From: Paludibacteraceae bacterium
GTDB lineage: Bacteria; Bacteroidota; Bacteroidia; Bacteroidales; Paludibacteraceae
Length of the DNA stretch: 64,000 nt
NCBI GenBank assembly: GCA_028694915.1
Contig: JAQVJY010000008.1
Coordinates: forward strand, 1 to 64,000
Reading direction: 5' to 3'
Below, piece by piece: positions 17,224-64,000 of this stretch. Both the position numbers and the translations under genes were made by a program. Position 1 is the stretch's first letter. Each line of letters begins with the position of its first letter. The notes below the pieces were generated by a model, which searched no databases, had not been told where the DNA came from, and saw only the letters and a program-made list of their open reading frames with translations.

Positions 17224-18084
17224 TTATCCGAGATAACCTTTGAGCAATTTGTTTTTAGAATTTGTGCGTAAACGACGAATGGCTTTTTCTTTAATCTGGC
17301 GTACACGTTCGCGTGTCAATCCAAATTTGTCGCCAATTTCTTCGAGTGTCATTTCTTGGCAACCAATGCCAAAGAACATTCGAATAATGTCGCGTTCGCG
17401 TTCACTAAGCGTTTCAAGAGCTCTACTGATTTCCGTCAAAAGTGATTCGCTCATTAAAGAACGGTCAGCTATTGGTGAGTCATCATTGACTAACACGTCG
17501 AGCAAACTGTTGTCTTCTCCTTCTACGAATGGAGCATCTACAGAAATGTGACGACCTGAAATCTTGATTGTGTCGGCAATTTTGTCAATAGGAATGTCCA
17601 ATTCCTCGGCCAATTCTTCGGGCGATGGGCGGCGTTCGTTTTCTTGTTCAAACCGTGAAAAGGCCTTGTTAATTTTGTTCAAGGAACCTACTTGATTCAA
17701 CGGTAAACGTACGATACGCGATTGTTCGGCCAAAGCTTGTAGAATCGATTGACGAATCCACCATACTGCGTAAGAAATAAATTTAAACCCGCGAGTTTCG
17801 TCGAACTTTTCGGCCGCTTTAATTAAGCCTAAATTACCTTCATTAATCAAGTCGGGTAAACTCAAACCTTGATTTTGGTATTGTTTGGCCACTGAAACTA
17901 CGAAACGAAGATTCGCGCGTGTCAATTTTTCGAGTGCTAAACGGTCACCTTTGCGTATCCGTTGAGCCAACTCAACTTCTTCTTCTACAGTAATAAGATT
18001 CTCACGCCCAATCTCTTGCAAATACTTGTCAAGTGACGCACTCTCACGATTAGTGATTGATTTGGTAATTTTTAATTGTCTCAT
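17224..18084 (-). CDS. rpoD: Primary RNA polymerase sigma factor (RpoD/SigA, Bacteroidetes short form)
   Basis: From the ATG at 18084 the protein is 286 residues and opens [21 protein letters not shown] in the usual Bacteroidetes manner; the longer frame to 18213 adds an unrelated AT-coded tail. It shows region 1.2, region 2 ([46 protein letters not shown]), region 3 and region 4 ([20 protein letters not shown]). Long region 1.1 is missing, as is normal in this phylum. A -7 box of its own recognition type lies 21 bases upstream. Confidence 0.96.
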
Positions 18085-18105
18085 TCTTGTAAAGAAATTA
18101 GCTTG

Positions 18106-18113
18106 CAAAGATA
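18106..18113 (-). promoter_or_regulatory. -7 promoter box of rpoD
   Basis: On the minus strand TATCTTTG precedes the ATG at 18084 by 21 bases, matching the Bacteroidetes consensus. It supports the shorter rpoD start. Confidence 0.65.
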
Positions 18114-18257
18114 AGCTTTTTTTTGAATAAATGACCCTTTTAACCCGTAAAAAACAAAAAAAGTTATAAGTGACGTTGTTTAATATCAAACTATCCTTTG
18201 TAAATTGAGCCATTCAATTACAAAGGATAGTTAAAATAGCCTGCTGTTTTATGCTTG

Positions 18258-19742
18258 TTATTCCAAGTTTACAGCGTAGTAAGCTACTTGACCATTATTG
18301 TAAATTCCGGTAATAAATAGCACTTTTTCATTCGCTTCGTTATTCAGGGCTTCGTTGTAGGCACGTTCTATATCCTCTTGATTTACAATGGTGATGTTGT
18401 TTATTTTTAAAATAACGAATCCTTCTTTTAAACCCGATTTTGCGAACTTACCGTTTTTATCCAATTGACTAATTTGAAGGCCATTTTTGATTCTGAATTT
18501 ATATTTAAATTGATCAGATACGGCGCTAAATTTTGCACCCAAATGACTTAAATCAACCGCTTTGACAACGCCCGTGTTGCCAGCTCTATTTTTTAATTCT
18601 ACCACGAGTTTCTTGGTTTTATTGTCGCGTATTAAGGTGACTTCTATTTTGTCTCCTGGACGGTAACGACCGATTTGTTCTTGTAATTGAGCTACCGATT
18701 TGGTGGCCACGTTGTTGATGGCTACAATCACATCGCCTTCTTCAATACCTCCAGTTTTGGCGGCACTGTTTTCGCCAACAGCTCCTACGTAGGCGCCTTC
18801 AAGGGTGGTAAGTTTTTTCTCTTTAGCTAACTTGTAGTCAATATCACTTATTTGTACACCTAAAATAGCGCGTTGTACCACACCAAATTCTTTTAAATCG
18901 GCGACCACTTTGCTCACAATACTGGTTGGAACAGCAAATGAATAGCCCGCATAAGAGCCTGTTTGCGACGCAATGGCGGTATTGATACCCACTAATTCTC
19001 CTTTGGTGTTGACTAAAGCGCCACCACTATTTCCTGGGTTTACAGCGGCATCGGTTTGTATAAACGATTCAATTTTCATATCACTATTTAGGATGTTAAT
19101 GTTTCTTGCTTTGGCACTTACGATACCTGCTGTTACGGTCGATGTTAAGTTGAATGGATTTCCAACTGCTAAAACCCATTCACCAATTTTGAGATTATCA
19201 GAATTACCGAAAATAATAGGTTGTAGGCTATCTGCCTCTATTTTTAGTAATGCAATATCAGTAGAAGCATCAGCTCCAATTACTTTTGCTTTAAAAGTGC
19301 GTTTGTCGTTGAGTGTGACTTCTACTTCATTGGCTCTGTCCACTACGTGATTATTGGTTACAATATAACCATCGCTACTAATAATGACGCCTGAACCTGA
19401 TGCCATTTGTTCTTGTTGTGGCATGAGGCGTCCACCGTTATTTGGTCGCCCAAAGAAAAAATCAAAAAATGGATCGCCCGAAAACGTTTGTGCTTGAGTC
19501 ATTTTATAGGTGGTCTTCACGTGCACTACGCTGTGTACCGATTGCTCAGCAGCTATGGTGAAATCTGTCGGCATGGCTTGTGTTGCTGGTAATGAAGCAA
19601 ATGAAGTTGGCACGGCTAACTGGTCGGATGAAGCGTTGTTGAATGCGCTATCCATTTTTTTTGTCGTGGTTACGGTGGCATAACTAGTAAGTACGCTAAT
19701 GCATGCTATGGCTAGACCGTAAAAAATCTTTTTGTTTTCCAT
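18258..19742 (-). CDS. Periplasmic serine protease HtrA/DegP family
   Basis: The 494-residue protein has an N-terminal membrane/signal segment and a trypsin-like domain. The catalytic triad is H132 (TNNHVV), D162 (STDIALL) and S239 (PGNSGGAL). A PDZ domain follows (GAYVGAVGENSAAKTGGIEEG), then a degenerate second PDZ near the C-terminus (QLDKNGKFAKSGLKEGFVIL). These proteases degrade or refold damaged envelope proteins. Length and domain order fit DegP/DegQ. It appears to be transcribed alone between rpoD and the divergent ABC-F gene. Confidence 0.95.
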   Translation of the reverse strand: MENKKIFYGLAIACISVLTSYATVTTTKKMDSAFNNASSDQLAVPTSFASLPATQAMPTDFTIAAEQSVHSVVHVKTTYKMTQAQTFSGDPFFDFFFGRPNNGGRLMPQQEQMASGSGVIISSDGYIVTNNHVVDRANEVEVTLNDKRTFKAKVIGADASTDIALLKIEADSLQPIIFGNSDNLKIGEWVLAVGNPFNLTSTVTAGIVSAKARNINILNSDMKIESFIQTDAAVNPGNSGGALVNTKGELVGINTAIASQTGSYAGYSFAVPTSIVSKVVADLKEFGVVQRAILGVQISDIDYKLAKEKKLTTLEGAYVGAVGENSAAKTGGIEEGDVIVAINNVATKSVAQLQEQIGRYRPGDKIEVTLIRDNKTKKLVVELKNRAGNTGVVKAVDLSHLGAKFSAVSDQFKYKFRIKNGLQISQLDKNGKFAKSGLKEGFVILKINNITIVNQEDIERAYNEALNNEANEKVLFITGIYNNGQVAYYAVNLE

Positions 19743-51940: not shown

Positions 51941-54034
51941 ATGTTAAGCTCTATACAAAAAAATATTACATACATAACAACTCGAATGGATAATAAAGAA
52001 ATAAAACAAGGAATCGAATTGGTTTGTCGGACTTCTTTTCAGATTAAAGATTATTATGAAAATCACAATAAATTGGTTGAGGCATTAAATAATGTCCCGA
52101 AAAGTGAACTAAAAAAGTGTTCCGACTATTATTCAACAAAAACAGGTGTTATAGTCAATTTACGAAAAGAACTAGTAGAATTTCTAAAAAGTGGGGAAAC
52201 TCTTACTGTTGAGATTCTCGAAAACTTATTGGATAAACATAGAAGCGGCAAAGAAAATCAGTTTAGAGCTTATAAGCAATGGTTCAGCTTATTTTATCCT
52301 CCAATTACTTTCTATGGGCATAATCCGATCCGAGATTTTATTAACTCCTTTATAAATCAGATTATTGAAGATTTGAAATTAGAAGGTAAAGTAAATCATA
52401 CATTAATTGATTTTCAAGGCGCTCGACAACAAGGAAGTGATAGACTTTGGTTTGCAATTTATAATAAGGAACAAGAATCTCAATCTACAGGAATTCAGTT
52501 TTTTCTTGATTTTCATAATGGGAAAGTAAGCTATGGAGTTTACAGACATAGCGATCAGACTTTTATAAAAGAACGAGTTATAAAAATCGCAAATGAATTT
52601 GATTACAATGAATTAATTAATTATTTCAAATCCGAAGTTGATATTATTCTGAACGACACTCCTAAAAATGTAAAAACTTCGTCTGTTGCTAAAATTCAAA
52701 AAGACATATCAGACAATTTAACAGAGAATCTTAATGTTATATTATTTGGCCCTCCAGGAACAGGAAAGACATACGAACTCAGTACAAATTACTTTAATAA
52801 ATTTACTTCAAAGCAATCAACTGTTTCAAGAGAAGAATTTTTAAAATCATTCATCATAGATAAATCATGGTGGGAAATTATTGCACTTGTCTTACTAGAT
52901 ATTGGTAAAAAAAGTAAAGTAGCTGACATCTTTAATCATGAATTTATACAGTTAAGAGCATCCCTTTCAAATTCGACTACTGTTACTCCTACAATTTGGG
53001 GGCAATTACAGAGCCATACAATTGAGAGTTGTGAAAATGTCAAAGTCAGCAAAAAGGGATCTCCTTTAATATTTAATAAAACGAATGATAGTTATTGGGA
53101 AATTATAAAAGAGGAAGTTAATCAACAAGCTCCTGAATTATTCGATGACTTAAAACGAATAAAAAATTTTAACGAAGACTCGAATTTAGAAATACGCAGA
53201 TATGAATTTGTTACATTCCATCAATCTTTTACATATGAAGATTTTGTAGAAGGAATTAAACCAAATTTTAATGAGGGAGAAAATGATTTAACCTATAAAA
53301 TTGAAGATGGAATATTTAAGAAAATGTGCCTAAAGGCACGAAAAGACCCTGATCAAAACTATGCAATTTTTATTGATGAAATAAATCGTGGTAATATCTC
53401 ACAAATATTTGGAGAACTTATCACTTTGATTGAAGAAGATAAAAGAGAGGGAGAGGACAACGAACTTTCGGTTATACTTCCATATTCTAAAACCAAGTTT
53501 AGTATTCCAACGAATTTATACATAATTGGCACAATGAATACAGCAGACCGAAGTGTTGAAGCTATTGATACGGCTTTAAGAAGAAGGTTTAGTTTTGTTG
53601 AAATGCCACCAAAGCCAGAGTTAATTAAGACAGTTGGAAAAGCTACTGATGGATTAATAAACGATATAGACTTGGTTGAACTTTTAAAAGTGATTAATAA
53701 AAGAATTGAAAAGCTTATTGATAAAGACCATATGATTGGTCATAGTTATTTTCTGAATATCGATAGTCTTTCTGCAATAAAAAAAGTTTTCAAAAATAAA
53801 ATACTACCCTTACTCCAAGAATATTTTTACGGTGATTTTGGCAAAATAGGACTTGTTCTTGGTAAAGGTTTTATAGAAGATAATCCAAACGAATTGGACG
53901 AAGAAGTTTTCGCTCAATATGATGAGTACGATAGCAGTTCGTTGATTGAGCGAAAAGTTTATCGACTTAAAGATGTTGTGCAAATGAGAGATGAGGATTT
54001 TATGCTATCAATTAATCTACTTCTAAAGAAATAA
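51941..54034 (+). CDS. mcrB: Type IV restriction protein McrB (AAA+ GTPase)
   Basis: The 697-residue protein has an N-terminal DUF3578/MrcB-like domain of about 230 residues (LIDFQGARQQGSDRLWFAIY) that probably reads modified DNA. The motor domain has Walker A GPPGTGKT (270-277) and YEFVTFHQSFTYEDFVEG. Walker B-like AIFIDEINRGNISQIFGE and the McrB signature MNTADRS (532-538) follow, with ALRRRF. An ATG at 51986 is an alternative start. The DNA is clearly AT-rich. With McrC it forms a GTP-driven complex that cuts DNA carrying modified bases. Confidence 0.95.
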   Translation: MLSSIQKNITYITTRMDNKEIKQGIELVCRTSFQIKDYYENHNKLVEALNNVPKSELKKCSDYYSTKTGVIVNLRKELVEFLKSGETLTVEILENLLDKHRSGKENQFRAYKQWFSLFYPPITFYGHNPIRDFINSFINQIIEDLKLEGKVNHTLIDFQGARQQGSDRLWFAIYNKEQESQSTGIQFFLDFHNGKVSYGVYRHSDQTFIKERVIKIANEFDYNELINYFKSEVDIILNDTPKNVKTSSVAKIQKDISDNLTENLNVILFGPPGTGKTYELSTNYFNKFTSKQSTVSREEFLKSFIIDKSWWEIIALVLLDIGKKSKVADIFNHEFIQLRASLSNSTTVTPTIWGQLQSHTIESCENVKVSKKGSPLIFNKTNDSYWEIIKEEVNQQAPELFDDLKRIKNFNEDSNLEIRRYEFVTFHQSFTYEDFVEGIKPNFNEGENDLTYKIEDGIFKKMCLKARKDPDQNYAIFIDEINRGNISQIFGELITLIEEDKREGEDNELSVILPYSKTKFSIPTNLYIIGTMNTADRSVEAIDTALRRRFSFVEMPPKPELIKTVGKATDGLINDIDLVELLKVINKRIEKLIDKDHMIGHSYFLNIDSLSAIKKVFKNKILPLLQEYFYGDFGKIGLVLGKGFIEDNPNELDEEVFAQYDEYDSSSLIERKVYRLKDVVQMRDEDFMLSINLLLKK

Positions 54035-54038
54035 TACA

Positions 54039-55298
54039 TTGCTTAAAAAACAGTCACATATAACAGTTTTTGAGCACGAGAGAATTCATATTGACCGTGG
54101 AACTAGTCGTATAAATCCAAGTCAATTAAAAGCATTACAACAGTTTTATGGTGAAAATGGTGTTCCATATTTCGAATTGATTCATAATGGAATTAAATTC
54201 AATGAATATGTGGGTGTATTAATGGTTGGTAAAACCACAATAGAAATTTTACCTAAAGCAGATAAAGATCTTGAAATCAAAGAATGGAGAAAAGTTCTAA
54301 TAGGAATGCTTCATGCTGTTGGTGTATTTGACATTCATACGCCAAGTTCTGCTTCGCTTGATCTTCGAGCCAATTCAATATTAGAATTGTATTTTGAGCT
54401 TTTCGTTTTAGAACTTGAATATTTATTACATGGTGGATTAATAAAAAAATATAGAAAAACATCAGGTAATTTGAATTCATTAAAAGGTAATATTAATTTC
54501 CCAAAACATATTAACTCAAATCTTATACATAAAGAGCATTTCTTTGTTAATTATACAACATACGATAGTGAACATGTATTTCATAAAATCTTGTTCAAGA
54601 CGCTTAAACTATTACAGAGAATTAATACTAATATCAAACTGCAAAGTAGAATAACATCTTTGTTATTGGACTTTCCTGAAATGCCAGATATAAAGGTTTC
54701 AGAAAATACCTTTAATCGAATAATCTATGATAGGAAATCGAGTAAATACAAAAACTCAATAGAGATTGCAAGATTATTATTATTGAACTATCACCCTGAT
54801 GTTAAAGTTGGATCAAATGATGTTCTGGCTCTTATGTTTGATATGAATTATTTATGGGAGCGATTTGTCTATTCCAGTTTAAGGAAACATAAAGAGGATG
54901 GATGTACAATAACAGCTCAAAATTCAAAGAACTTTTGGAAACCAAATGTTGGTTATAATTCAAAAATGAAACCAGACATTGTAATAAATAAAGATAAGGA
55001 TAACTGCATTGTATTAGATACAAAATGGAAAAATCTTAAGAAAAATAATCCATCGCCAGATGATTTAAGACAAATGTATGTTTACATGAAATACTATAAC
55101 GCAAAACGTGTAGCTTTAGTTTATCCAAATTCAGAATCAAGTATTATATCAGGTTTTTTCTACGAAGAATCAAATTCAAAATTAAGAGAAAATGATTGTA
55201 GTCTGATTTTAATTGGTGTAATCGAAGACATAAAACAATGGCAGATAAAGATAAATGAGCAAATAAATAGTTGGGAAAAATACGAGATAATAATATGA
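54039..55298 (+). CDS. mcrC: Type IV restriction nuclease subunit McrC
   Basis: The 419-residue partner of McrB has an N-terminal beta-barrel region (VFEHERIHIDRG, YFELIHNGIKFNEYVGVL). The C-terminal PD-(D/E)xK nuclease has D313 in KPDIVINK and D327-T-K329 in VLDTKWK. The only start in a sensible place is TTG at 54039, five bases after the mcrB stop. The next in-frame ATG would remove conserved sequence. McrC supplies the cleavage activity and stimulates McrB GTPase. AT-richness matches mcrB. Confidence 0.94.
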   Translation: MLKKQSHITVFEHERIHIDRGTSRINPSQLKALQQFYGENGVPYFELIHNGIKFNEYVGVLMVGKTTIEILPKADKDLEIKEWRKVLIGMLHAVGVFDIHTPSSASLDLRANSILELYFELFVLELEYLLHGGLIKKYRKTSGNLNSLKGNINFPKHINSNLIHKEHFFVNYTTYDSEHVFHKILFKTLKLLQRINTNIKLQSRITSLLLDFPEMPDIKVSENTFNRIIYDRKSSKYKNSIEIARLLLLNYHPDVKVGSNDVLALMFDMNYLWERFVYSSLRKHKEDGCTITAQNSKNFWKPNVGYNSKMKPDIVINKDKDNCIVLDTKWKNLKKNNPSPDDLRQMYVYMKYYNAKRVALVYPNSESSIISGFFYEESNSKLRENDCSLILIGVIEDIKQWQIKINEQINSWEKYEIII

Positions 55299-55380
55299 AA
55301 TTTTCTGTAATCTTTTACTGGTTATATTTTTAACCGTCGTGAATTAATTCTATCGTACATAGATTAAAACATATTATACA

Positions 55381-55420
55381 ACAAAACAGCCAAAAGAAAA
55401 TTTTCTCTTGGCTGTTTTGT
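55381..55420. terminator. Terminator hairpin between mcrC and the tRNA fragment
   Basis: A 20-bp dyad (55381-55400 with 55401-55420, one mismatch) around ACAAAACAGCCAA/TTGGCTGTTTTGT lies three bases from the tRNA 3' end. On the minus strand it is the natural tRNA terminator; on the plus strand it can also stop mcrC transcription. Confidence 0.85.
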
Positions 55421-55423
55421 TTG

Positions 55424-55448
55424 TTGCCTCACAAGGACTCGAACCCTG
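55424..55448 (-). other. tRNA 3' fragment, probable attachment site (attR-like), possibly tRNA-Gln
   Basis: Read on the minus strand, CAGGGTTCGAGTCCTTG folds as a perfect five-pair T arm and loop (one G-T pair). It is followed by the 3' acceptor strand TGAGGCA and a discriminator A. The 5' acceptor, D arm and anticodon arm are absent from the sequence to the right. The predicted U1-A72 pair is typical of tRNA-Gln. This is what remains on the distal side when an element integrates into the 3' end of a tRNA gene. Confidence 0.7.
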
Positions 55449-55535
55449 ACGAAGCTAAAAATCATGTAATTATTTTTAATACGCTCTAAATCAGTTAATT
55501 ATTTTTTGAATTTACCTAAAAAAATAGTCATTATC

Positions 55536-55552
55536 GACACGATTTTGACACG
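55536..55552. repeat. Direct repeat GACACG-N5-GACACG
   Basis: GACACG occurs at 55536-55541 and 55547-55552, one helical turn apart (11 bases), about 90 bases inside the tRNA fragment. The spacing fits arm-type recombinase or excisionase sites, but the repeat is short. Confidence 0.35.
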
Positions 55553-55564
55553 GTTTATGGCTAA

Positions 55565-55604
55565 AATTAATAGCATTTAAATAGGTCTTAAAATGCTATT
55601 AATT
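55565..55604. repeat. 14-bp inverted repeat near the element end
   Basis: AATTAATAGCATTT (55565-55578) and its perfect complement AAATGCTATTAATT (55591-55604) enclose a 12-base loop. It may be a terminator for the leftward lipoprotein gene, although no long T tract follows, or a recombination-related site. Confidence 0.5.
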
Positions 55605-55636
55605 AAATAGTTGTGGTGTTATTAAAATTCGATTGA

Positions 55637-55960
55637 TTACTGCTTTACAAATACGCCTGTTTCATCTTCAATGGTCGCTGTTATTGTATTTTTATCAATT
55701 AAACCCGTAATAACAGTTTCATCCTCGTATGTAAAATGAATTCTATTGGTATAAACGGAATAAGAGAAAATACCATTTTGATACTCCGGCTCACCTTTCG
55801 ATTTTACCCAAAACTCAACACTATTAGTTGAGGTAAACACAAATAAAGCATATTCAACATCACCTATATAACTACATTTCCAAGTAGTACCCGAAAGATT
55901 ATCTACTTTTGTGTAATCTTTCTCGCACGAGGTTAATAGCACCGAAACACACGCCAACAC
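55637..55960 (-). CDS. Small lipoprotein-like protein with a frameshifted signal peptide
   Basis: The readable frame of 107 residues starts at GTG (55960) as MLACVSVLLTSC, with a lipobox LTSC. An ATG at 55980 begins MKKTFF in a frame that hits TAG. If the run of eight T at 55962-55969 (minus strand) had nine, the two would join into MKKTFFLVLACVSVLLTSC, a textbook lipoprotein signal. The mature part (DNLSGTTWKCSYIG) looks like a small beta-sheet domain. The gene is broken, phase-variable or mis-sequenced here. Function unknown. Confidence 0.6.
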   Translation of the reverse strand: MLACVSVLLTSCEKDYTKVDNLSGTTWKCSYIGDVEYALFVFTSTNSVEFWVKSKGEPEYQNGIFSYSVYTNRIHFTYEDETVITGLIDKNTITATIEDETGVFVKQ

Positions 55961-55992
55961 TAAAAAAAAGTTTTTTTCATAAAGTTTTAATT

Positions 55993-56289
55993 TTAAAATT
56001 TAAATAATACACCTTTATCTTCTTGGTTTATTTCTTCATTTATCAAAGCATTCACAAGCTGAAATCCTTTTAATTTTCGATCTTCTGAGAAGACAATTAA
56101 ATAATATTCATTAGATAGATGAATATTGAATATAATGCCATCCCTAAACCTTTCGCCATGCGATACGATTTCTGCATCAAATCGTTTACAAAAACCATCG
56201 AAATCACGCTCTAAATGTTCAAGCAATATTTGAGAATAGTTTAAAACGCTCCATTCTAAACCATTTTCAATATCTATAGGAAATGCCAT
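55993..56289 (-). CDS. Hypothetical 98-residue protein
   Basis: I do not recognise a family. The protein begins MAFPIDIENGLEWSVLN and is mixed alpha/beta, acidic, without cysteine clusters, signal peptide or membrane helix. An AAAGGAG ribosome-binding site (56295-56301) lies five bases before the ATG. It is the third gene of a leftward block behind the HTH regulator, suggesting a lysogeny-type or stability function, which is inference only. Confidence 0.65.
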   Translation of the reverse strand: MAFPIDIENGLEWSVLNYSQILLEHLERDFDGFCKRFDAEIVSHGERFRDGIIFNIHLSNEYYLIVFSEDRKLKGFQLVNALINEEINQEDKGVLFKF

Positions 56290-56325
56290 GATAACTCCTT
56301 TGTTTTACTTTAATCACGTTTATTC

Positions 56326-56583
56326 TCAATCAATGATTGTTTTTCCAGATTTTTTTTTGCGATGTTCTATTGCTATAGGAATTTGAGTCCCGTATATTTT
56401 AATTAGTTGCACAATTACATTGTACAGAGGCTCATCTTTACTCTTTTGATTAATTAAAAGACTATTTATTAGTTGTTTTAACTGTTCTTTAATCGCAACT
56501 GTTTCAATAGAATTATCTGGTATTACAGACTCTATAATTTCATCTATTGCTTGTGTAACATCAAATGGTTTATTCATATCCAT
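56326..56583 (-). CDS. Hypothetical 85-residue helical protein
   Basis: The protein is predicted helical (TQAIDEIIESVIPDNSIE, IKEQLKQLINSLLINQ) and ends in a basic patch (EHRKKKSGK). No family was recognised. AAAGGAG at 56590-56596 lies six bases before the ATG, supporting this start over the ATG two codons later. It sits 11 bases downstream of the HTH gene and is co-transcribed with it. Confidence 0.65.
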   Translation of the reverse strand: MDMNKPFDVTQAIDEIIESVIPDNSIETVAIKEQLKQLINSLLINQKSKDEPLYNVIVQLIKIYGTQIPIAIEHRKKKSGKTIID

Positions 56584-56594
56584 TATTTTCTCCT

Positions 56595-56948
56595 TTATTT
56601 TAATAGTTCAATATTATTATTCCCAAAAATCATTGCTAAGACTTTATCTCTAAGCTCTTCTTTCAATTCCACGGTCAGTTGAGCTTTAACATCATTGTCA
56701 TTTTTATCTTTTTCGACAAAAGTGTTTGGATAAGTTATAATATCGATTTCGCGCATCTGCAATTTTTCTGCGATAATAGAAAGTTCGTTTATACTCAACT
56801 TTTGAATACCATTTGAAATTTTATTCCATTTTGGCTCAGTAAAACCAATTAAATCGGAGAAATCAACCTTTGTTAATCCTCTGTCTTTCATTATTTTAAT
56901 TAGTTTTTCAACAATGAAATGTGGTTGTGATTTTTCTGTTGTTTTCAT
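56595..56948 (-). CDS. Helix-turn-helix regulator of the element (XRE/Cro-CI-like)
   Basis: The 117-residue protein has an N-terminal HTH at about 24-60 (GLTKVDFSDLIGFTEPKWNK, then LSINELSIIAEKL), as in XRE/Cro-CI repressors. A charged C-terminal helix may allow dimerisation. It faces the rightward operon across a 180-base region that contains a perfect 8-bp dyad and T/A-rich half sites. By position it is the probable repressor of the element; binding is not shown. Confidence 0.78.
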   Translation of the reverse strand: MKTTEKSQPHFIVEKLIKIMKDRGLTKVDFSDLIGFTEPKWNKISNGIQKLSINELSIIAEKLQMREIDIITYPNTFVEKDKNDNDVKAQLTVELKEELRDKVLAMIFGNNNIELLK

Positions 56949-57077
56949 TTTTAGTTTTTTTTTAAAAATAGGTATTGATTTTCAATTACTTATATTTATT
57001 TTAGCAAGAAAATTTCTAAAATAGAAGATTATTCTTGCGAAAATCGAAATATTTAATTTACTTTGCACAGTCTTAAC

Positions 57078-57100
57078 AATATTACAACGGTAGTAATATT
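57078..57100. promoter_or_regulatory. Operator-like dyad in the divergent control region
   Basis: AATATTAC (57078-57085) and GTAATATT (57093-57100) are perfect inverted 8-bp arms separated by seven bases. The site lies 28 bases before the ATG at 57129, between the HTH regulator and the rightward unit. A related ATTATTACAAC at 57098-57108 partly overlaps it. Confidence 0.6.
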
Positions 57101-57128
57101 ATTACAACAATTGTGCAACTCTAAAATA

Positions 57129-57527
57129 ATGGAAATGGAAAAAGGTAATAACTGTACTCCTGGTTCGCTCCACCAAATGAGAGCGATTGCTACTTATCAA
57201 GAAATGAAAGTGCAGCTTATAAAGCTTCACAAGGATGAAACTTTCAAAGAATACCTAGCTTTTGAAATGGCAATGAAAATATTTTATAACCATTATGAAA
57301 AATGGTTGAGAGAAAACGAAAGTAAATTTCCTAAAAATGTAAAGTGCGACTGCGGACACACTATTCAAGACCATTACATGGGTGGTTGGTGTCATAGCTC
57401 AGGACATCCAAAATCAGGTCAATGTGGTTGTACTTTTTTTCATCCCAAGGAATCGAGTGTAGACGCTTTTATGCGTAATAATTATACAGGTAAAGCTTTT
57501 GAAAAAGAACATAGTGAGGTCAAATAA
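57129..57527 (+). CDS. Small cysteine/histidine-rich protein, probable zinc binder
   Basis: From the ATG at 57129 the protein is 132 residues. An in-frame TTG at 57063 lies in the promoter and is rejected. The C-terminal half has C73, C75, H77, H82, C88, H89, H93, C99, C101 and H105, a compact cluster likely to bind zinc (CDCGHTIQDHYMGG region). The N-terminal half is helical. The family was not recognised. It is the first gene of the rightward unit, where early regulators or DNA-binding adaptors often lie. Confidence 0.7.
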   Translation: MEMEKGNNCTPGSLHQMRAIATYQEMKVQLIKLHKDETFKEYLAFEMAMKIFYNHYEKWLRENESKFPKNVKCDCGHTIQDHYMGGWCHSSGHPKSGQCGCTFFHPKESSVDAFMRNNYTGKAFEKEHSEVK

Positions 57528-57559
57528 GATTTTAATTTTCAATTAAATAAACTATTACT

Positions 57560-57718
57560 ATGGAACTACTAATTATCACTATTCTAATCATTGTCATTTT
57601 GGCGCTTGTAATTGCGCTTATCGTGGCTAACGCTATCATTCAAGAAAAGAATGAGCTCCTAGATGCCAAAGAGAAAATTATTGGAGCGCTCGTTGAAAAA
57701 CAAGATTATCAATCCTAA
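57560..57718 (+). CDS. Small membrane protein of 52 residues
   Basis: A complete ORF begins MELLIITILIIVILALVIAL, a single transmembrane helix. A charged, coiled-coil-like tail ending EKQDYQS follows. It lies 32 bases after the cysteine-rich gene and 44 before the next gene, in line with the unit. The topology resembles small holin-like or membrane-anchor peptides, but it has no recognised family. Confidence 0.6.
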   Translation: MELLIITILIIVILALVIALIVANAIIQEKNELLDAKEKIIGALVEKQDYQS

Positions 57719-57762
57719 ACGCTTAACGCTACACACTAAACAATTTATTAATACATACAGCT

Positions 57763-57978
57763 ATGGAAGAGAACAACAAACAACTATTAGCAGACAAACT
57801 CTCTAAATGGTACTATTCGTTACCCGTGAATGAGTTTAAAGAAGTGCGTGATAAAATCATTGCCGATTGCGAGATAACACGCTATATCTTTTATAACTGG
57901 CTATCGGCTAAAACGCGCATTTCAAAAGCCAACCAAAAAGCGATTGAATTGGTTGCTAATAAAGAGATTTTCAAATAG
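57763..57978 (+). CDS. Small basic helical protein, possibly DNA-binding
   Basis: The 71-residue protein is basic and helical. Its second half, TRYIFYNWLSAKTRISKANQ, resembles the recognition helix and turn of small phage Cro-like proteins that read an NW-x-GKT-like pattern. No fold can be proved. It sits between the membrane peptide and a 77-residue gene in the same direction. Confidence 0.65.
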   Translation: MEENNKQLLADKLSKWYYSLPVNEFKEVRDKIIADCEITRYIFYNWLSAKTRISKANQKAIELVANKEIFK

Positions 57979-57996
57979 GAACAAAACCAAATTGAC

Positions 57997-58230
57997 ATGG
58001 AAAAACCATATATACTTACCGAAAAAGTAAACGAAACAGTGCTTCAAATCGAACATGTGGACAATAGACTGTTCGAGGTGGAAGAACTAATCAACTCAAC
58101 CGACGGAATACATATCAAACGATTACGCACGGAACACATCAAAGGCGTGGCAGAGTTTTACTGCACAACCAACCTAGCCATTTTTCACAGAGAAGAATTT
58201 GAACGTAACCTAAACACGATACTAGCATGA
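57997..58230 (+). CDS. Hypothetical 77-residue protein upstream of the primase
   Basis: A short soluble protein (MEKPYILTEKVNETVLQIEH at its start), acidic and mixed alpha/beta, with no recognised family. Its TGA overlaps the primase ATG (ATGA at 58227-58230), so it is translationally coupled to the replication gene and may be a small accessory factor. Confidence 0.7.
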   Translation: MEKPYILTEKVNETVLQIEHVDNRLFEVEELINSTDGIHIKRLRTEHIKGVAEFYCTTNLAIFHREEFERNLNTILA

Positions 58231-60986
58231 AACAACGCATATTGGATGTAACACGCGGAGGATTAGACATAATCTTATCCTACTATCCACAAGCGCAAGA
58301 ATGTGTGGATGGTTCCGCGAAAAAGTTCAAGCTCCGTACTTCGGAGCAAACCGCCTCAGCTTCACTCAAAGAATACAAGGGTATTTGGTATGTGACAGAT
58401 TTCGGCGATGACTCCACAGGGCGTAATGCGTTTGACGTGGCTATGAGAGAAGAGTGTTTGCCATTCAAGCAAACTATCTTCCTATTGGCACAACGGTACG
58501 GGGTCGAAACGACACTCTCAGCCGAAATCAATAAACCCACGATCAAAAGTCGTAAAGCAACCAAAGATGAGCCAAACGGGACGTTCTCCTTTGTGGAAAA
58601 GAAAGAACCAAGCGAGGCAGATTTAGAAGTATTTGGCCCGTTTGTCAAACCCCAAACAATGCAGAAATATAGCTACAAATCACTCGAAAGCTATTCCATA
58701 ACCAAAGAGGGTAAGACAACCACGATTACCGCCAATGATAACTACCCAATATTCATGCGAGATTGTGGCACGTTTCAGAAGATTTACAAACCGCTTGAAT
58801 ACAACAAAGCCTTTCGCTTTTTCTATAATGGCGAAAAACCTCGTGACTATATCAACGGACTAGAGGAAGTACGCAAAGCATTTGCCAAGTTAGAAGCCGA
58901 GAATGACGAGGAAGAGGACGCCAAAGCTCGCAAACGCAAATTATCAGAGGTGATTATCTGTTCAGGTGAACGAGATGCAATGAACGTGGCAGGTATGGGC
59001 TTTTTGCCTATTTGGCTCAATTCCGAAACGGCAGCCTTATCGGACAAAGACTTTTACGACCTACTACGTATGGCCGATAAAGTCTATAATGTGCCCGACA
59101 TCGACGATACGGGTTTACGAGCTAGTGCACAATTAGCATTGCGATTCCTGGAACTCTATACGGTGGAGTTGCCCCAATGGCTTCGCTCCTATAAAGACAA
59201 TCGGGGCAAAGGTCGTAAGGACCTACGAGATTTTCTCGAACTACGACCAGCAAATGCGGAGTTCAATAAACTCCTGAATACAGCCAAACAATGTAAATTC
59301 TGGAATATCATTGTGTCTGAAAAGGGTAACCGCACCGAGATTAAAACAACCTCGTTGCTCTATTACTTACGTTTGAACGGCTTCTACAAGATTAAAGATA
59401 AAGTCACTAACCAAATGCGCTATATTCGTGTGTCAGGCTACAAAGTGGAGGAGTACGAACCTAAACGCATTCGCGACTTCATCAAAACCGATTTACAACA
59501 CCGACAACTCGATAATGCGATTTTGGATCTGTTCCTTAATTCCAAACGCACGGGCGCAGCCTTGGCGGATGACTTGGAAACCATTGAGCTCAATTTTGAA
59601 AAGAATTCCTTCAATAGTCGGACATTCTTTTTTGAAAATTGTAGCATCACCGTCACCGCCGATAAAGTCACCGAGACCAGGAACGACGATATTAAATCCT
59701 ATACGTGGATAAATAACGTTTCGCCACACCGTTTTAAACGCCTTGAACCCTCTTTTGAGGTGAAAGTGGATAAACAGACCGACAACCTCTCTTTCTTGAT
59801 TACAAACACGAAAAGCCACTATTTCAGAATGCTCATTAACGCAAGCCGTATCTATTGGAAAGAGGAGTTTGAGCACCGCCTTTCAAACGTGGTAGAGGAA
59901 AATGAACAATACCGAAAGGACTTTCAATTCGCCACCGATGGGCCACGTCTCAAACAAGAAGAGATTACCGAACAAACACGCCATATCCTGAATAAAATCT
60001 ATGCGATTGGCTATATACTGCATCGCTATAAAAATAAGTCTAACAGTCGTGCTTTGTGGATCATGGAGAATAAACTCACCGAAGAGGACGAAAGTTCAGG
60101 TGGATCTGGAAAATCCTTTTTGATAGATGCACTCAAAATGCTCTCGCTGATTAATGTTGTCACACTCCAGGGACGTGATAAGAAAGTAACCGAGAACAAA
60201 CACTTACTTGACCGTGTGTCTGCCGATACGGATTTGTTGCTCGTGGATGATGCACACCGGTACATCGACTTTAACTATTTCTATACGATGATAACAGGTA
60301 GCATCACAGTGAACCCTAAAGGGGATAAGTCGTTTGAAATTGATTACTTGGATTCGCCTAATATGGCGTTTACCTCAAACTTCCCACTACCTAACGATGA
60401 TCCTTCTACCATGCGACGCATGCTGAACGTGGTATTTTCGGACTATTACCACGAGAAAGGCATAGACTCAATTTATCTAGAAAGTCGCTCGATACGGGAT
60501 GATTTCGGGTATGACCTCTTTGGATACGAATATACAGAAGAGTTCTACAATGAGGACATCAATTTCTGTGTGGATTGCTTGCAATTCTATTTATCCATGG
60601 CTCCACAGAACATCGTAATACAACCACCAATGGAAAACGTCATAAAACGTATCAATATCGCACAGATGGGCGGTGTGTTTAAAGAATGGGCAGAGGTGTT
60701 TTTTAGTTCTGATAGTGATAATTTGGATGTACTACTCAATAAGTCCGTCATATTCAAAACCTTTGTCACAGAAACGGGCAATAACCTTTGGAAAATCCAC
60801 AAATTCACAAAAGCCCTCAAAGCCTTTGTCGAGAATACCGACTACATTCAAGAACTCAATCCGCGCGAATTACAGGGCAATGATGGCAAGCGTATTTTAC
60901 GCAAAATAGATGGCAAACAAACGGAGTGCATCTACCTTAGAACCGTAGGAGCTCCTTTAAATGAACAATTTAAACTTGATTATTAA
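58227..60986 (+). CDS. TOPRIM primase and SF3/D5-like helicase fusion (element replication protein)
   Basis: The 919-residue protein has an N-terminal region (1-120) that may hold a zinc-less primase or DNA-binding domain. A TOPRIM domain at about 239-310 has E248 (ICSGERDA) and D291/D293 (PDIDDTG). A C-terminal ATPase has Walker A GGSGKS (625-630), Walker B LLLVDDAH (acidic 674-675) and sensor-like TSNFPLP. The plan is that of phage/satellite primase-helicases such as P4 alpha. GC use is visibly higher than in the neighbouring genes. It probably starts element replication. Confidence 0.85.
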   Translation: MKQRILDVTRGGLDIILSYYPQAQECVDGSAKKFKLRTSEQTASASLKEYKGIWYVTDFGDDSTGRNAFDVAMREECLPFKQTIFLLAQRYGVETTLSAEINKPTIKSRKATKDEPNGTFSFVEKKEPSEADLEVFGPFVKPQTMQKYSYKSLESYSITKEGKTTTITANDNYPIFMRDCGTFQKIYKPLEYNKAFRFFYNGEKPRDYINGLEEVRKAFAKLEAENDEEEDAKARKRKLSEVIICSGERDAMNVAGMGFLPIWLNSETAALSDKDFYDLLRMADKVYNVPDIDDTGLRASAQLALRFLELYTVELPQWLRSYKDNRGKGRKDLRDFLELRPANAEFNKLLNTAKQCKFWNIIVSEKGNRTEIKTTSLLYYLRLNGFYKIKDKVTNQMRYIRVSGYKVEEYEPKRIRDFIKTDLQHRQLDNAILDLFLNSKRTGAALADDLETIELNFEKNSFNSRTFFFENCSITVTADKVTETRNDDIKSYTWINNVSPHRFKRLEPSFEVKVDKQTDNLSFLITNTKSHYFRMLINASRIYWKEEFEHRLSNVVEENEQYRKDFQFATDGPRLKQEEITEQTRHILNKIYAIGYILHRYKNKSNSRALWIMENKLTEEDESSGGSGKSFLIDALKMLSLINVVTLQGRDKKVTENKHLLDRVSADTDLLLVDDAHRYIDFNYFYTMITGSITVNPKGDKSFEIDYLDSPNMAFTSNFPLPNDDPSTMRRMLNVVFSDYYHEKGIDSIYLESRSIRDDFGYDLFGYEYTEEFYNEDINFCVDCLQFYLSMAPQNIVIQPPMENVIKRINIAQMGGVFKEWAEVFFSSDSDNLDVLLNKSVIFKTFVTETGNNLWKIHKFTKALKAFVENTDYIQELNPRELQGNDGKRILRKIDGKQTECIYLRTVGAPLNEQFKLDY

Positions 60987-60988
60987 TT

Positions 60989-61834
60989 ATGAAAGTAGGA
61001 TTAGTTGATGTTGACGGACATTGTTTCCCAAATGTCGCCTTGATGAAAATATCGACCTATTATAAGCAATTAGGATGTGAAGTTGAACATGCAACAATTG
61101 GATATTACGATAAATTATACATTTCAAAGATTTTCAACTTTTCACCTGAAATTGAGCTTGGTTTAATCCAATCAAATGACATTCACAAAGGTGGAACCGG
61201 TTATGATTTAAAAAAACGGTTGCCAAATGAAATTGAAATTTGCGATCCAGATTATTCGGTTTATCCTCAATACGATTTTTCTGTACAATTTTTTAGTCGG
61301 GGTTGCATTCGTAATTGTTCGTTTTGCGTAGTTCGTGAAAAGGAAGGCTTTATTATGCCACAAAAACCAATGAATTTAAACCCTAACGGGAAACACATTG
61401 AAATACTCGATAATAATTTTTTTGCCAACCCTGAATGGAAAAGCGCAATTGATTACTTATTGGATAAAAAACAGCCTGTAAACATGCACGGTGTTGACGT
61501 TAGGATTATGAATGAAGAACAGGCTTACTGGCTCAATAAACTAAAGCATCTAAAGCAAATCCACATCGCATGGGATTTTCCGAAAATTGATTTAGTACCT
61601 CAGATTACCGAAATGACCAAACACGTTAAACCTTACAAAATTATGTGCTATGTTCTAATAGGGTTCAATTCAACACCTGAACAAGATTTATACAGGGTTG
61701 AAAAATTACGAGAATTGAAAATTAGCCCTTTCGTAATGCCTTATAACAAATCAGATCCTTATCAAAAACGCTTTGCTAGATGGGTAAACCATAAAGCTAT
61801 TTTTAATACTGTAAAATGGTCAAAATATAAATAA
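60989..61834 (+). CDS. Radical-SAM protein of unknown function with B12-like N-terminal fold
   Basis: The 281-residue protein opens MKVGLVDVDGHCFPNVALMK, a Rossmann-like start seen in phage and island radical-SAM proteins. The 4Fe-4S motif CxxxCxxC is C106, C110, C113 in RGCIRNCSFC. The rest is a partial TIM barrel (GVDVRIMNEEQAYWLN; CYVLIGFNS) ending in basic ARWVNHKAIFNTVKWSKYK. No extra cluster is seen. It lies two bases after the primase and is more AT-rich. The reaction is unknown; a nucleic-acid or peptide substrate is possible. Confidence 0.82.
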   Translation: MKVGLVDVDGHCFPNVALMKISTYYKQLGCEVEHATIGYYDKLYISKIFNFSPEIELGLIQSNDIHKGGTGYDLKKRLPNEIEICDPDYSVYPQYDFSVQFFSRGCIRNCSFCVVREKEGFIMPQKPMNLNPNGKHIEILDNNFFANPEWKSAIDYLLDKKQPVNMHGVDVRIMNEEQAYWLNKLKHLKQIHIAWDFPKIDLVPQITEMTKHVKPYKIMCYVLIGFNSTPEQDLYRVEKLRELKISPFVMPYNKSDPYQKRFARWVNHKAIFNTVKWSKYK

Positions 61835-61835
61835 T

Positions 61836-61889
61836 ATGAACTATAAACCAACTCCCAATGATTTATTCACTAATACTAATTTACTATGA
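61836..61889 (+). CDS. Possible 17-residue leader peptide ORF
   Basis: ATG at 61836 starts MNYKPTPNDLFTNTNLL and stops at TGA inside the next ATG (ATGA at 61886-61889). The arrangement suggests translational coupling to the following gene. It is so short that it may be chance. Confidence 0.3.
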   Translation: MNYKPTPNDLFTNTNLL

Positions 61890-62137
61890 TTACAGGATTA
61901 TACGGGTGTAGTTGTCATCCATTTAATAGTTGGGAAGAATGTGATAAGGAACATTCAAAGCAACTTAGAATTGGTGATAAAGTAACCAATAGACACTCCA
62001 ACAAAGTGGGTGTTGTTCATGAAATCTTAAAAGAAAAGGGTTTTGTTACAGTTAAATACGGGAACTATCAACGGGATATAGAACTTGAACATGTCGCACA
62101 ATTAATATTATTATCAAATCAATTATCACTATTTTAA
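61886..62137 (+). CDS. Hypothetical 83-residue protein with SH3-like middle
   Basis: The protein starts MITGLYGCSCHPFNSWEE with a Cys-x-Cys-His cluster. It then has a basic beta-rich stretch (RIGDKVTNRHSNKVGVVHEI) like small SH3/KOW folds, and ends in a hydrophobic tail. No family was identified. It lies between the radical-SAM and MazG-like genes in the unit and starts in an ATGA overlap. Confidence 0.62.
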   Translation: MITGLYGCSCHPFNSWEECDKEHSKQLRIGDKVTNRHSNKVGVVHEILKEKGFVTVKYGNYQRDIELEHVAQLILLSNQLSLF

Positions 62138-62147
62138 AATCAAAATT

Positions 62148-62435
62148 ATGGAAAAAGAAGACGTTATCAATAGAAAAGACTCTTTTGTTATGAGTTATGA
62201 GCATCTAGCAATATTTATCCCAGTTCAAATAGAGTTCATAAGGGCGAATAAACTTCATCCCAATTTTCCAAAGGATATGTTTCAACAGTTAGCAATCATG
62301 CAGGAAGAGGCAGGAGAAGTGACAAAAGCAGTGTTGGATTATCATTTTGGTAAAGATACCATTGAGCACGTAAGAGAAGAATTAATTCAAACCGCTGCAA
62401 TGTGTGTAAGGATGTTGCAAAATTTACCTAAATAG
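62148..62435 (+). CDS. MazG-like nucleotide pyrophosphohydrolase
   Basis: The 95-residue all-helical protein has the metal motif EEAGEVTKAV (E53, E54, E57) and a second acidic pair E77-E78 in REELIQTAAMCVRML. The aspartate usual in EExxE-ExxD is replaced by Gln/Thr, a variation I have seen in phage-type MazG-like proteins. Such enzymes hydrolyse (d)NTPs or alarmones. It is 10 bases after the preceding gene and may adjust nucleotide pools during element replication. Confidence 0.75.
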   Translation: MEKEDVINRKDSFVMSYEHLAIFIPVQIEFIRANKLHPNFPKDMFQQLAIMQEEAGEVTKAVLDYHFGKDTIEHVREELIQTAAMCVRMLQNLPK

Positions 62436-62476
62436 ACTATTTAAAATGAAAAAGACAAAAAACAAAAAAAAACAGT

Positions 62477-62484
62477 TACTTTTG
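62477..62484 (+). promoter_or_regulatory. Putative -7 box of the Fic gene
   Basis: TACTTTTG matches TAnnTTTG, 24 bases before the ATG at 62509, and lies inside the longer reading frame. No -33 box was found. Confidence 0.45.
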
Positions 62485-62508
62485 CATCACAAACAAAAGA
62501 ATACACTC

Positions 62509-63267
62509 ATGGAATCCGTCAATGCAATAATTCAAGCTTATCAGAAAGCGTCTAAAGGGGTGCTCCATGCACAACGTTATTCGGACTATGCTGCGACCTA
62601 CCATTCAACGTCCATGGAGGGTAGCACGCTCACATCAACACAGGTTACCAACTTGCTCGACTTAGGCAAGACGGCAACCAATAAAGCCTTTTGGGAACAC
62701 CAAATGGTCGTGGATCATTACGAGGCAATGAAATTTATTGCTGAAAAAGCTCAAAAGAAAAAAGAGATTACGCCGCAGTTCATCTCCGACATCGCTGCCC
62801 TGGTAATGAAAGGCACAGGCGGTCAAGTCAATTCGGCTGCTGGTTCATTCGATACCTCGAAAGGAGAATACCGTAAATGTAGCGTATTTTCAGGAGCTCG
62901 CATTTTTCCTTCATACCAAAAAGTGGGAACAATGGTGGCTGACCTGTGCGCTAAATTAAACAAGTCAATGAAAAACGCTAAGACCACCGAAGAGAAGTTG
63001 GAAATAGCATTCATGGCACAGTTTGAGTTAGTCTCTATTCATCCATTTGCAGACGGTAACGGGCGCACATCACGTCTTTTGATGAACTACATACAGCTTT
63101 ATTTCGGATTGCCACCAGGCGTCGTATTTAAAGGCGATAAGATTAAGTACATCGATAAGATGGAAGCACTCCGAAAAACGGACAACCCCAAACCGTATGT
63201 GGCTTTTATGATGAGCCAATACAAACGGTTCCTCAAGCAAGAAACAAAGCACTTCCTTCGAAAATAA
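62509..63267 (+). CDS. Fic family protein, class II-like with N-terminal inhibitory helix
   Basis: From the ATG at 62509 the protein is 252 residues; an in-frame ATG at 62446 adds a Lys-rich, low-complexity stretch across a -7 box and is less likely. The Fic core HPFADGNGRTSR starts at H178. An N-terminal SxxxEG inhibitory motif is S33 to E37-G38 (STSMEG), which in class II Fic proteins blocks ATP through the glutamate. It likely AMPylates proteins. No separate antitoxin gene is adjacent. It may act in defence or host control. Confidence 0.9.
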   Translation: MESVNAIIQAYQKASKGVLHAQRYSDYAATYHSTSMEGSTLTSTQVTNLLDLGKTATNKAFWEHQMVVDHYEAMKFIAEKAQKKKEITPQFISDIAALVMKGTGGQVNSAAGSFDTSKGEYRKCSVFSGARIFPSYQKVGTMVADLCAKLNKSMKNAKTTEEKLEIAFMAQFELVSIHPFADGNGRTSRLLMNYIQLYFGLPPGVVFKGDKIKYIDKMEALRKTDNPKPYVAFMMSQYKRFLKQETKHFLRK

Positions 63268-63270
63268 ACC

Positions 63271-63299
63271 AAATCCCCTGCACATAACGCAGGGGATTT
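63271..63299 (+). terminator. Terminator after the Fic gene
   Basis: An 11-bp perfect stem (63271-63281 with 63289-63299), CCCCTGC/GCAGGGG in its core, with a seven-base loop, is followed by a T tract. It ends the rightward unit. Confidence 0.88.
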
Positions 63300-63362
63300 T
63301 TTTTGCCCCGTTTGCCCCTTATAGATACAAGTTTCCCCATGAAATAGGTACAAAAATGCCGA

Positions 63363-63379
63363 CCCCCGCCAAGCGGGGG
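63363..63379. repeat. Short GC-only hairpin in an AT-rich region
   Basis: CCCCCGC (63363-63369) pairs with GCGGGGG (63373-63379) over a three-base loop CAA. It lies 60 bases past the Fic terminator in sequence that is otherwise poor in G and C. Confidence 0.65.
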
Positions 63380-63446
63380 GAGTGCTCAACCTGGCTTTAT
63401 TCCACATCAACCCCTTTTTATCCCCTTATTTTCTACCAAAACTTTG

Positions 63447-63454
63447 TAACTTTG
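63447..63454 (+). promoter_or_regulatory. Putative -7 box before the repeat region
   Basis: TAACTTTG matches TAnnTTTG and lies 43 bases before the first 22-bp repeat. There is no convincing protein start downstream, so a short non-coding transcript is possible. Confidence 0.4.
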
Positions 63455-63496
63455 TATCTTAAAATGATAAAGTATTAAAAATCAATAAAATAATAA

Positions 63497-63540
63497 GGTT
63501 ACAAAAAGGGTACAAATAGGTTACAAAATGGGTACAAACT
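63497..63540. repeat. Two tandem 22-bp direct repeats (iteron-like)
   Basis: GGTTACAAAAAGGGTACAAATA (63497-63518) is followed directly by a copy at 63519-63540 with two or three changes (GGTTACAAAATGGGTACAAACT). The unit is exactly 22 bases, two helical turns. Such repeats bind replication initiators or repressors. Confidence 0.72.
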
Positions 63541-63570
63541 TAATATGAACCTAAATAGGGCCATATTAAG
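63539..63570. repeat. 9-bp inverted repeat beside the tandem repeats
   Basis: CTTAATATG (63539-63547) and CATATTAAG (63562-63570) are perfect inverted arms around 14 bases. It abuts the second 22-bp repeat and could be part of an origin or operator. Confidence 0.55.
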
Positions 63571-63748
63571 TAACACTAAACGCCACGTAAGCCAAATCCC
63601 CAACACTTTCCGTTTCAATCATTACATACCATGCTGCCGTATCGTTTGTATGGTGGTTGCTGTATAGAAACTTAAAATAATGCTCCGCAAACATTTTAAG
63701 ATTCCAATCTGGTAAATTTCTGAACCACCCAAACCATACGATCATCAC
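63566..63748 (-). CDS. Possible 60-residue hypothetical protein
   Basis: An ORF on the minus strand reads MMIVWFGWFRNLPDWNLKM at its start and ends GDLAYVAFSVT. The composition (Trp/Phe-rich start, mixed later) looks protein-like. It has no recognised family and no clear ribosome-binding site. It overlaps one arm of the 63539-63570 inverted repeat at its end. It may be a small element protein or chance. Confidence 0.3.
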   Translation of the reverse strand: MMIVWFGWFRNLPDWNLKMFAEHYFKFLYSNHHTNDTAAWYVMIETESVGDLAYVAFSVT

Positions 63749-63866
63749 TATATTCCATTCATTACACGTCGTGTTGTGGATATAGCTTACCTATGTGGCA
63801 GTAAGGTATGGAAACTTACTAAACCCACTCCGTTAGGGTTCGTAAGATTCCATGACATCAATTATT

Positions 63867-63880
63867 ACAACTATAGTTGT
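63867..63880. promoter_or_regulatory. 14-bp palindrome, possible operator
   Basis: ACAACTATAGTTGT is a perfect 14-bp palindrome. It is preceded by ATTATT, so ATTATTACAAC (63861-63871) exactly matches 57098-57108 in the divergent control region. Confidence 0.5.
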
Positions 63881-63924
63881 AAAACTACTACAAACAACCC
63901 TAATCGGGGCTTTGTAGTAGTTTT
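63881..63924. terminator. Bidirectional terminator near the right edge
   Basis: A 14-bp perfect stem (63881-63894 with 63911-63924) with a 16-base loop is A-rich on the left and T-rich on the right. It lies just beyond the end of the leftward partial gene at 63946. Confidence 0.82.
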
Positions 63925-63945
63925 TTTTATGCCTATATGATTGTT

Positions 63946-64000
63946 TTACAATACTTTTGTTACATATCCATAAGCAATTACTTTATCCTTGAATTGAATG
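63946..64000 (-). CDS. 3' end of a leftward gene (partial)
   Basis: A frame on the minus strand enters from the right edge and ends in TAA at 63946-63948, giving IQFKDKVIAYGYVTKVL as its last residues. It is followed on the minus strand by the terminator at 63881-63924, which supports a real gene end. The product cannot be identified from 17 residues. Confidence 0.5.
   Translation of the reverse strand, partial: IQFKDKVIAYGYVTKVL

Follow-up and report, generated by a model that had tools for sequence, protein, structure and literature searches.

A tRNA-Gln 3' fragment at the far end of an integrated 23-kb element in a Paludibacteraceae genome

Why does a Paludibacteraceae bacterium carry, beside its mcrBC genes, the 3' end of a tRNA gene without the rest of that gene? 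The piece lies in a window of 64 kb (64,000 nucleotides), the first part of a contig (C46) that ends at 76,360 in a genome of 2.09 Mb, 62 contigs and 99% completeness. No intact tRNA was found by ARAGORN in the window, and Rfam gave no match at gathering score over C46:55000-76360; around the fragment it returned only matches far below the gathering scores of their families. The most probable answer, to which we assign a probability of roughly 0.96, is that positions 55421-55450 are the attachment site at the far end of an element of 23.2 kb, which its integrase inserted at tRNA-Gln.

The fragment and its intact counterpart

On the minus strand, positions 55450-55421 read GTCAGGGTTCGAGTCCTTGTGAGGCAACAA, which folds into a T stem of 5 bp with the loop TTCGAGT (7 bases), followed by TGAGGCA as acceptor 3' strand and A as discriminator. 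The 28 tRNA bases (55423-55450) comprise the T arm, the acceptor 3' strand and the discriminator, and two further bases beyond the tRNA end are identical as well. A sequence-only reading of the window had recognized the same structure in 25 bases at 55424-55448; it was right about the location and fell short on the extent, as the identity block extends three bases further to the left and two further to the right. In a comparison with 53 distinct 28-base tRNA 3' ends, drawn from all loci of the analysis, the fragment reached 28/28, while no second place in the window exceeded 19/28 and the maximum in the reversed window was 20/28. A 22-base core searched with up to three mismatches occurred once, with 0 occurrences expected. 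The match is beyond chance level.

When 55300-55600 was used as a query against the own genome, the segment was found once more, at C21:2411-2440, where an intact tRNA-Gln(CTG) is located (C21:2413-2484, minus strand, ARAGORN). Its first pair is U1-A72, the pair from which tRNA-Gln had been predicted on the basis of the fragment. The last 127 bases of C46 are the first 127 of C21 and are found only there in the assembly, which would be the trace of an assembler using words of 127 between adjacent contigs. A receptor gene continues across this join in an unbroken reading frame of 803 aa, and its OMP_b-brl_3 domain (Pfam) is matched on C46 from profile position 1 to 301 and on C21 from 287 to 408. 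Together, the unique overlap and the in-frame gene indicate that both ends of the element lie on one continuous DNA. A point against the main reading is that the element spans two contigs, so that the join leans on the unique 127-base overlap and not on a single contig.

In the joined contigs the 30-base repeat is present twice, with both copies pointing the same way and a distance of 23,223 bases between them. The full tRNA-Gln that the sequence-only reading expected within 10-100 kb to the right, sharing its last 25-50 bases with the fragment, is thus the one at C21:2413-2484, 23.2 kb away and identical over 30 bases. The intact tRNA stands at one end of the element and its exact 3' fragment at the other, again in the same orientation, and a tyrosine recombinase gene lies inside the element and adjoins the intact tRNA, encoded on the same strand, with 105 bases between the tRNA 3' end and the start of the gene. 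With intact tRNA and integrase at the opposite end, the fragment marks the left end of an element integrated at a tRNA, as had been proposed; the element genes, which had been placed about 190 bases to the right, begin with an open reading frame 187 bases off (Table 1).

Table 1 Features of the element, its flanks and a protein family of related elements. Positions without a contig name refer to the window.
Feature	Position	Strand	Remarks
mcrB	51941-54034	+	AAA_5; chromosomal side of junction, outside element
mcrC	54039-55298	+	McrBC; chromosomal side of junction, outside element
17-bp perfect hairpin with flanking A/T tracts	55382..55419	-	-23.1 kcal/mol, z -8.5
Attachment repeat, far element end	55421..55450	-	30-base exact copy of C21:2411-2440
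Displaced tRNA-Gln(CTG) 3' fragment, tRNA bases 45-72	55423..55450	-	28/28 identity
Element interior	55451..64000, on to C46:76360 and C21:128-2410	.	
Putative arm-type integrase site, tandem repeat TCGACACGATTTTGACACG	55534..55552	+	11-base period
Second shared word TTGTGGTGTT, 10 bases	55611..55620	+	in both element ends
Three small genes	55637-55960, 55993-56289, 56326-56583	-	no family matches
HTH_26 Cro/C1-type repressor	56595..56948	-	divergent from replication genes
919-aa primase/helicase-like protein (DUF5906)	58227..60986	+	related to Bacteroidota phage primases
Radical-SAM-like protein	60989..61834	+	81% identical to gene of C49 element
Fic/DOC family protein	62446..63267	+	cargo
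Tyrosine recombinase, 385 aa	C21:1150-2307	-	Phage_integrase E 8.7e-16; PHROG integrase E 5.2e-32
229-240-aa protein family	L120 (G020) 12165-12854; L122 (G135) 17860-18549; L119 (G098) 3465-4169; C49:57470-58192		

Chromosomal flanks

On the chromosomal side the fragment is followed by a hairpin, which the sequence-only reading had described as a strong terminator. The hairpin is present, but a terminator pattern scan did not flag 55419-55382 because the T tract sits within the stem, and "terminator" is therefore a reading of the hairpin and not the output of a tool. It is probably the original terminator of tRNA-Gln, left outside the element by the insertion, and may now also end the convergent mcrBC transcript. 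By eye, three relatives of the element (G098, G020 and G135) have a hairpin followed by T both just past the rebuilt tRNA and outside the fragment, and no obvious hairpin with T was seen between tRNA-Gln and the integrase in the own element.

The mcrBC genes (51941-55298) directly adjoin the element end. Relatives of mcrC occur in only 5 of 300 genomes of the family, the own genome included, so that mcrBC itself would be a sporadic gain beside tRNA-Gln. A second, older tRNA fragment, as expected if mcrBC belonged to a composite insertion, was searched for past mcrBC, and none was found on that side.

An exact empty site was sought in the 300 family genomes with a 411-base query of the joined flanks, which outside the own genome matched little more than the tRNA and a few adjacent bases. 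A second genome of the genus (82% complete) gave no match to nfeD, mcrC, the integrase or the flank query. In the nearest genera different genes surround tRNA-Gln, and the flanking genes were not near tRNA-Gln in the loci checked. No syntenic relative carrying the fragment without the element was seen. In a genome of another genus (G012), however, the flanking genes of both junctions are colinear neighbours on one contig (C2) that has no element: C21_5954, 4936, 3977 and nfeD are followed, after 5.8 kb, by the genes from the nitroreductase (51152) to Maf (48230). This order and orientation is the one predicted by the C46/C21 join, and neither the integrase nor the primase has a relative in G012. 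Three genes, which were given their names by sequence, occupy the 5.8 kb: tgt, an LptF/G-like gene and mfd. The tRNA-Gln of G012 is located elsewhere; in the own genome, mfd is on another contig. The locus therefore differs by more than the element, and G012 is not an exact empty site. Both this difference and the lack of an exact empty site in any strain, with nearest genera that differ around tRNA-Gln, count against the main reading.

The integrase family and its tRNA targets

Relatives of the integrase were found in 78 of the 300 family genomes, the own genome included. Further relatives are present in named MAGs of Bacteroidales and Paludibacteraceae, with many gut samples among the sources, and a scan of viral contigs yielded six. 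In most loci of the family the integrase gene comes shortly after the 3' end of a tRNA. The target tRNAs vary and include Gln, Thr, Lys, Arg, Ala, Met, Val, His, Leu and Ser, and once tmRNA. Wherever a contig spans a whole element, the far end consists of 28-35 exact bases of the adjacent tRNA 3' end (6/6), and each of these six copies starts at the T arm; the targets are tRNA-Met in G098, Ser-gct in G020, Pro in G135, Ser-cga in G270, Asp in G157 and Thr in G042. Because the far-end geometry is the same in all six relatives, the fragment in the window is a signature of this integrase family. On one contig of G270 (C32, L124-L126), extra partial tRNA-Ser copies lie beside both ends, at ~20.8 kb and 60.2-60.7 kb, as if tandem insertions shared one tRNA.

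The arrangement is a textbook tRNA integration, an ordinary integrase-mediated insertion at the T-loop. On this account the circular attP of the element, which carries the last 28-30 bases of tRNA-Gln(CTG), was recombined by the tyrosine recombinase (C21:1150-2307) with the same bases of the tRNA-Gln gene in the chromosome. A whole tRNA-Gln was thereby rebuilt at the integrase end (C21:2413-2484), and the host's own tRNA 3' piece, together with the hairpin following it, was pushed to the opposite end, where it now forms the fragment. The site of strand exchange is probably the T-loop, which has also been proposed for phage Ms6; in the own element and the six relatives the identity block runs from the T arm to the tRNA 3' end, as in T-loop (class II) sites. 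The product of the rebuilt tRNA-Gln is presumably functional, and the element may still be able to excise.

Known systems match this arrangement closely. Islander-type tRNA islands (PMC4383910) likewise have a rebuilt tDNA at one end, a displaced 3' fragment at the other and a tyrosine integrase by the intact tDNA, and in end structure there is no difference from them; what differs are the cargo and the core genes, which come from an apparently undescribed Paludibacteraceae family. The 26-base core of Ms6 (PMC1762012) reaches from the T stem-loop to the tRNA 3' end, and the 28-35 bases found here cover the same part, but Ms6 uses a mycobacterial tRNA-Ala whereas at least 10 tRNA isotypes are targeted across this integrase family. 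As the end structure is of the Islander type and the core part is that of Ms6, the mechanism is already established. Of more interest is a tRNA-targeting family of gut Bacteroidales: its integrases, a single lineage, address at least 10 tRNA isotypes with a constant T-arm core and an 11-base arm spacing, which makes the family a good natural series on how integrases switch tRNA targets.

The integrase probably grips the ends via tandem 11-base arm sites at both ends of the element. The 17-mer GACACGATTTTGACACG is found in both ends, the second site being at about C21:2352-2368, with two unit copies 11 bases apart. This 17-mer and TTGTGGTGTT look like arm-type integrase sites. Across seven elements the arm repeats are end-matched, with a mean identity of attL to its own attR of 0.78 vs 0.61 for mismatched pairs. 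The 11-base spacing dominates and was found in most members of the integrase family; G157 showed no convincing arm pair. Because many loci of the family are close relatives of one another, the counts given here for tRNA targets, far ends and arm repeats are not independent.

The region in front of the integrase gene also shows a recurring arrangement. In 31 of 36 distinct integrase loci (L040-L090) the start codon comes right after a run of A (7-10, with the A of the ATG counted), and a stem-loop whose sequence differs between loci lies upstream of the A run and the ATG. In predicted folds, 56% of the A run is paired, compared with 17% when the upstream sequence is shuffled, although the 36 loci are related to each other. 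In the own element (C21:2309-2345, minus strand), a T7 tract, the stem and the A tract form a single 16-bp hairpin that ends at the ATG. Such a hairpin could hide an A-rich ribosome site, for example in transcripts reading through from the tRNA promoter. Alternatively, it could be a DNA operator.

Gene content and nature of the element

As the fragment sets both ends of the 23-kb element to the base, its cargo is defined, and consists of restriction-modification genes (a cytosine methyltransferase and an NgoFVII-like endonuclease), the Fic/DOC family protein, a two-component system, a PepSY-like protein and a TonB-type receptor. The conserved core comprises the integrase, the 919-aa primase and a block of 218-, 99-, 181- and 187-aa proteins, of which the 187-aa protein is a P-loop ATPase. 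The primase is 40% identical to that of Bacteroides phage BT-TP2 and 37% to that of Polaribacter phage Leef_1, over 98% of the length, but these phages have terminase, portal or tail genes, whereas no terminase, portal, capsid or tail gene was found among the scanned proteins of the window element, and a tailed (Caudoviricetes) prophage was rejected on these grounds. The ATPase had no match in the phage collection. By eye, the small proteins encoded at 56326-56583 and C46:65136-65681, one on either side of the replication genes, share the motif YGxxIPxAIxHRK.

The relatives G020, G135 and G098 share the primase, the 181/218-aa proteins and the ATPase with the window element. In these elements the core block is followed by a conserved module of a 229-aa protein, several single-membrane-span proteins, a metallopeptidase-like protein and long variable proteins, with an M15-peptidase endolysin in the module of G020. 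The window element is without this module, and its cargo genes other than the Fic/DOC gene occupy the place that the module holds in the three relatives. Proteins of the 229-240-aa family stand in the position of a capsid gene, and judging from gene type the module could encode the virion of a virus that is small and probably without a tail. None of its proteins matched a known capsid, and it is therefore from the type of the genes that we infer a virion role. The 229-240-aa family had no convincing match in Pfam, PHROGs, PDB or phage records. Scans of viral contigs with the ATPase and with an alignment of the 229-aa family gave no relatives, and a sequence search of solved structures gave no useful match for either.

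A second element is present in the same genome at C49:46877-67636, in tRNA-Thr(CGT) (L195, L196). Like the window element it is tRNA-integrated, and the two share a distant P-loop ATPase (27% identical), a 201/218-aa protein (41%) and a radical-SAM gene (C49:59021-59887, 81% identical to window 60989-61834). Unlike the window element, it has an integrase of a different subfamily and carries a phage lysozyme and a protein of the 229-aa family. The identity of 81% in the radical-SAM gene, compared with at most 41% in the other shared genes, suggests a recent exchange between the two elements.

Several other explanations can be weighed against these observations. Decayed pieces of tRNA do occur in bacterial genomes (PMC9897764), and the segment could in principle be a chance or decayed remnant (a pseudo-tRNA left by an old duplication) unrelated to the element. 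This is extremely improbable for 30 bases that are identical to a tRNA 23 kb off and end exactly at the element start, with an integrase at the other end, a contig join and the same geometry in six relatives. A different question is how the element moves. Transfer by conjugation, as an ICE or IME at a tRNA site, would agree with the tRNA-site integrase and with the restriction-modification and two-component/TonB cargo, which suit a genomic island. The proteins scanned, however, included neither a relaxase nor a coupling protein nor any type IV secretion component, the genes by which a conjugative or mobilisable element would be recognized. The phage-type primase and the small P-loop ATPase form a core that is shared with lysozyme- or M15-peptidase-bearing elements, which makes conjugative movement unlikely.

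Perhaps the window element is instead related to, or a satellite of, a family of temperate viruses that are small and probably lack a tail. It would have no virion genes of its own, would retain genes for replication and packaging-like genes, and may be packaged by the virion genes of a co-resident like the C49 element. That G020, G135 and G098 share the core and add a conserved module absent from the window element would fit, as would the related genes in the same genome with their 81% identical radical-SAM gene. The reading is nevertheless doubtful: the virion role of the module is drawn from gene type and none of its proteins matched a known capsid, the ATPases of the two elements are only 27% identical, and simple decay with gain of cargo would give the same picture. 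In its full form this reading appears rather unlikely: a cargo-carrying satellite of an undescribed family of temperate viruses in gut Paludibacteraceae, small and probably without tails, would have kept integrase, primase and the packaging-like ATPase, traded its virion module for restriction-modification and sensory genes, and would depend on a co-resident virus, such as the C49 element, for capsids. As far as our searches show, the element family is undescribed. More work would best go to this family, to the range of tRNAs it targets and to what may be a virus and its satellite within a single genome.

Returning to integration at tRNA-Gln, the second element adds a comparison within the same genome. 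Crossover sites in tRNA genes have been grouped in the literature into those at the anticodon loop, the T loop and the T/acceptor junction. The 53-base repeat of the C49 element starts in the anticodon loop and the repeat at tRNA-Gln starts at the T arm; both classical tRNA sublocations are therefore found in one genome.
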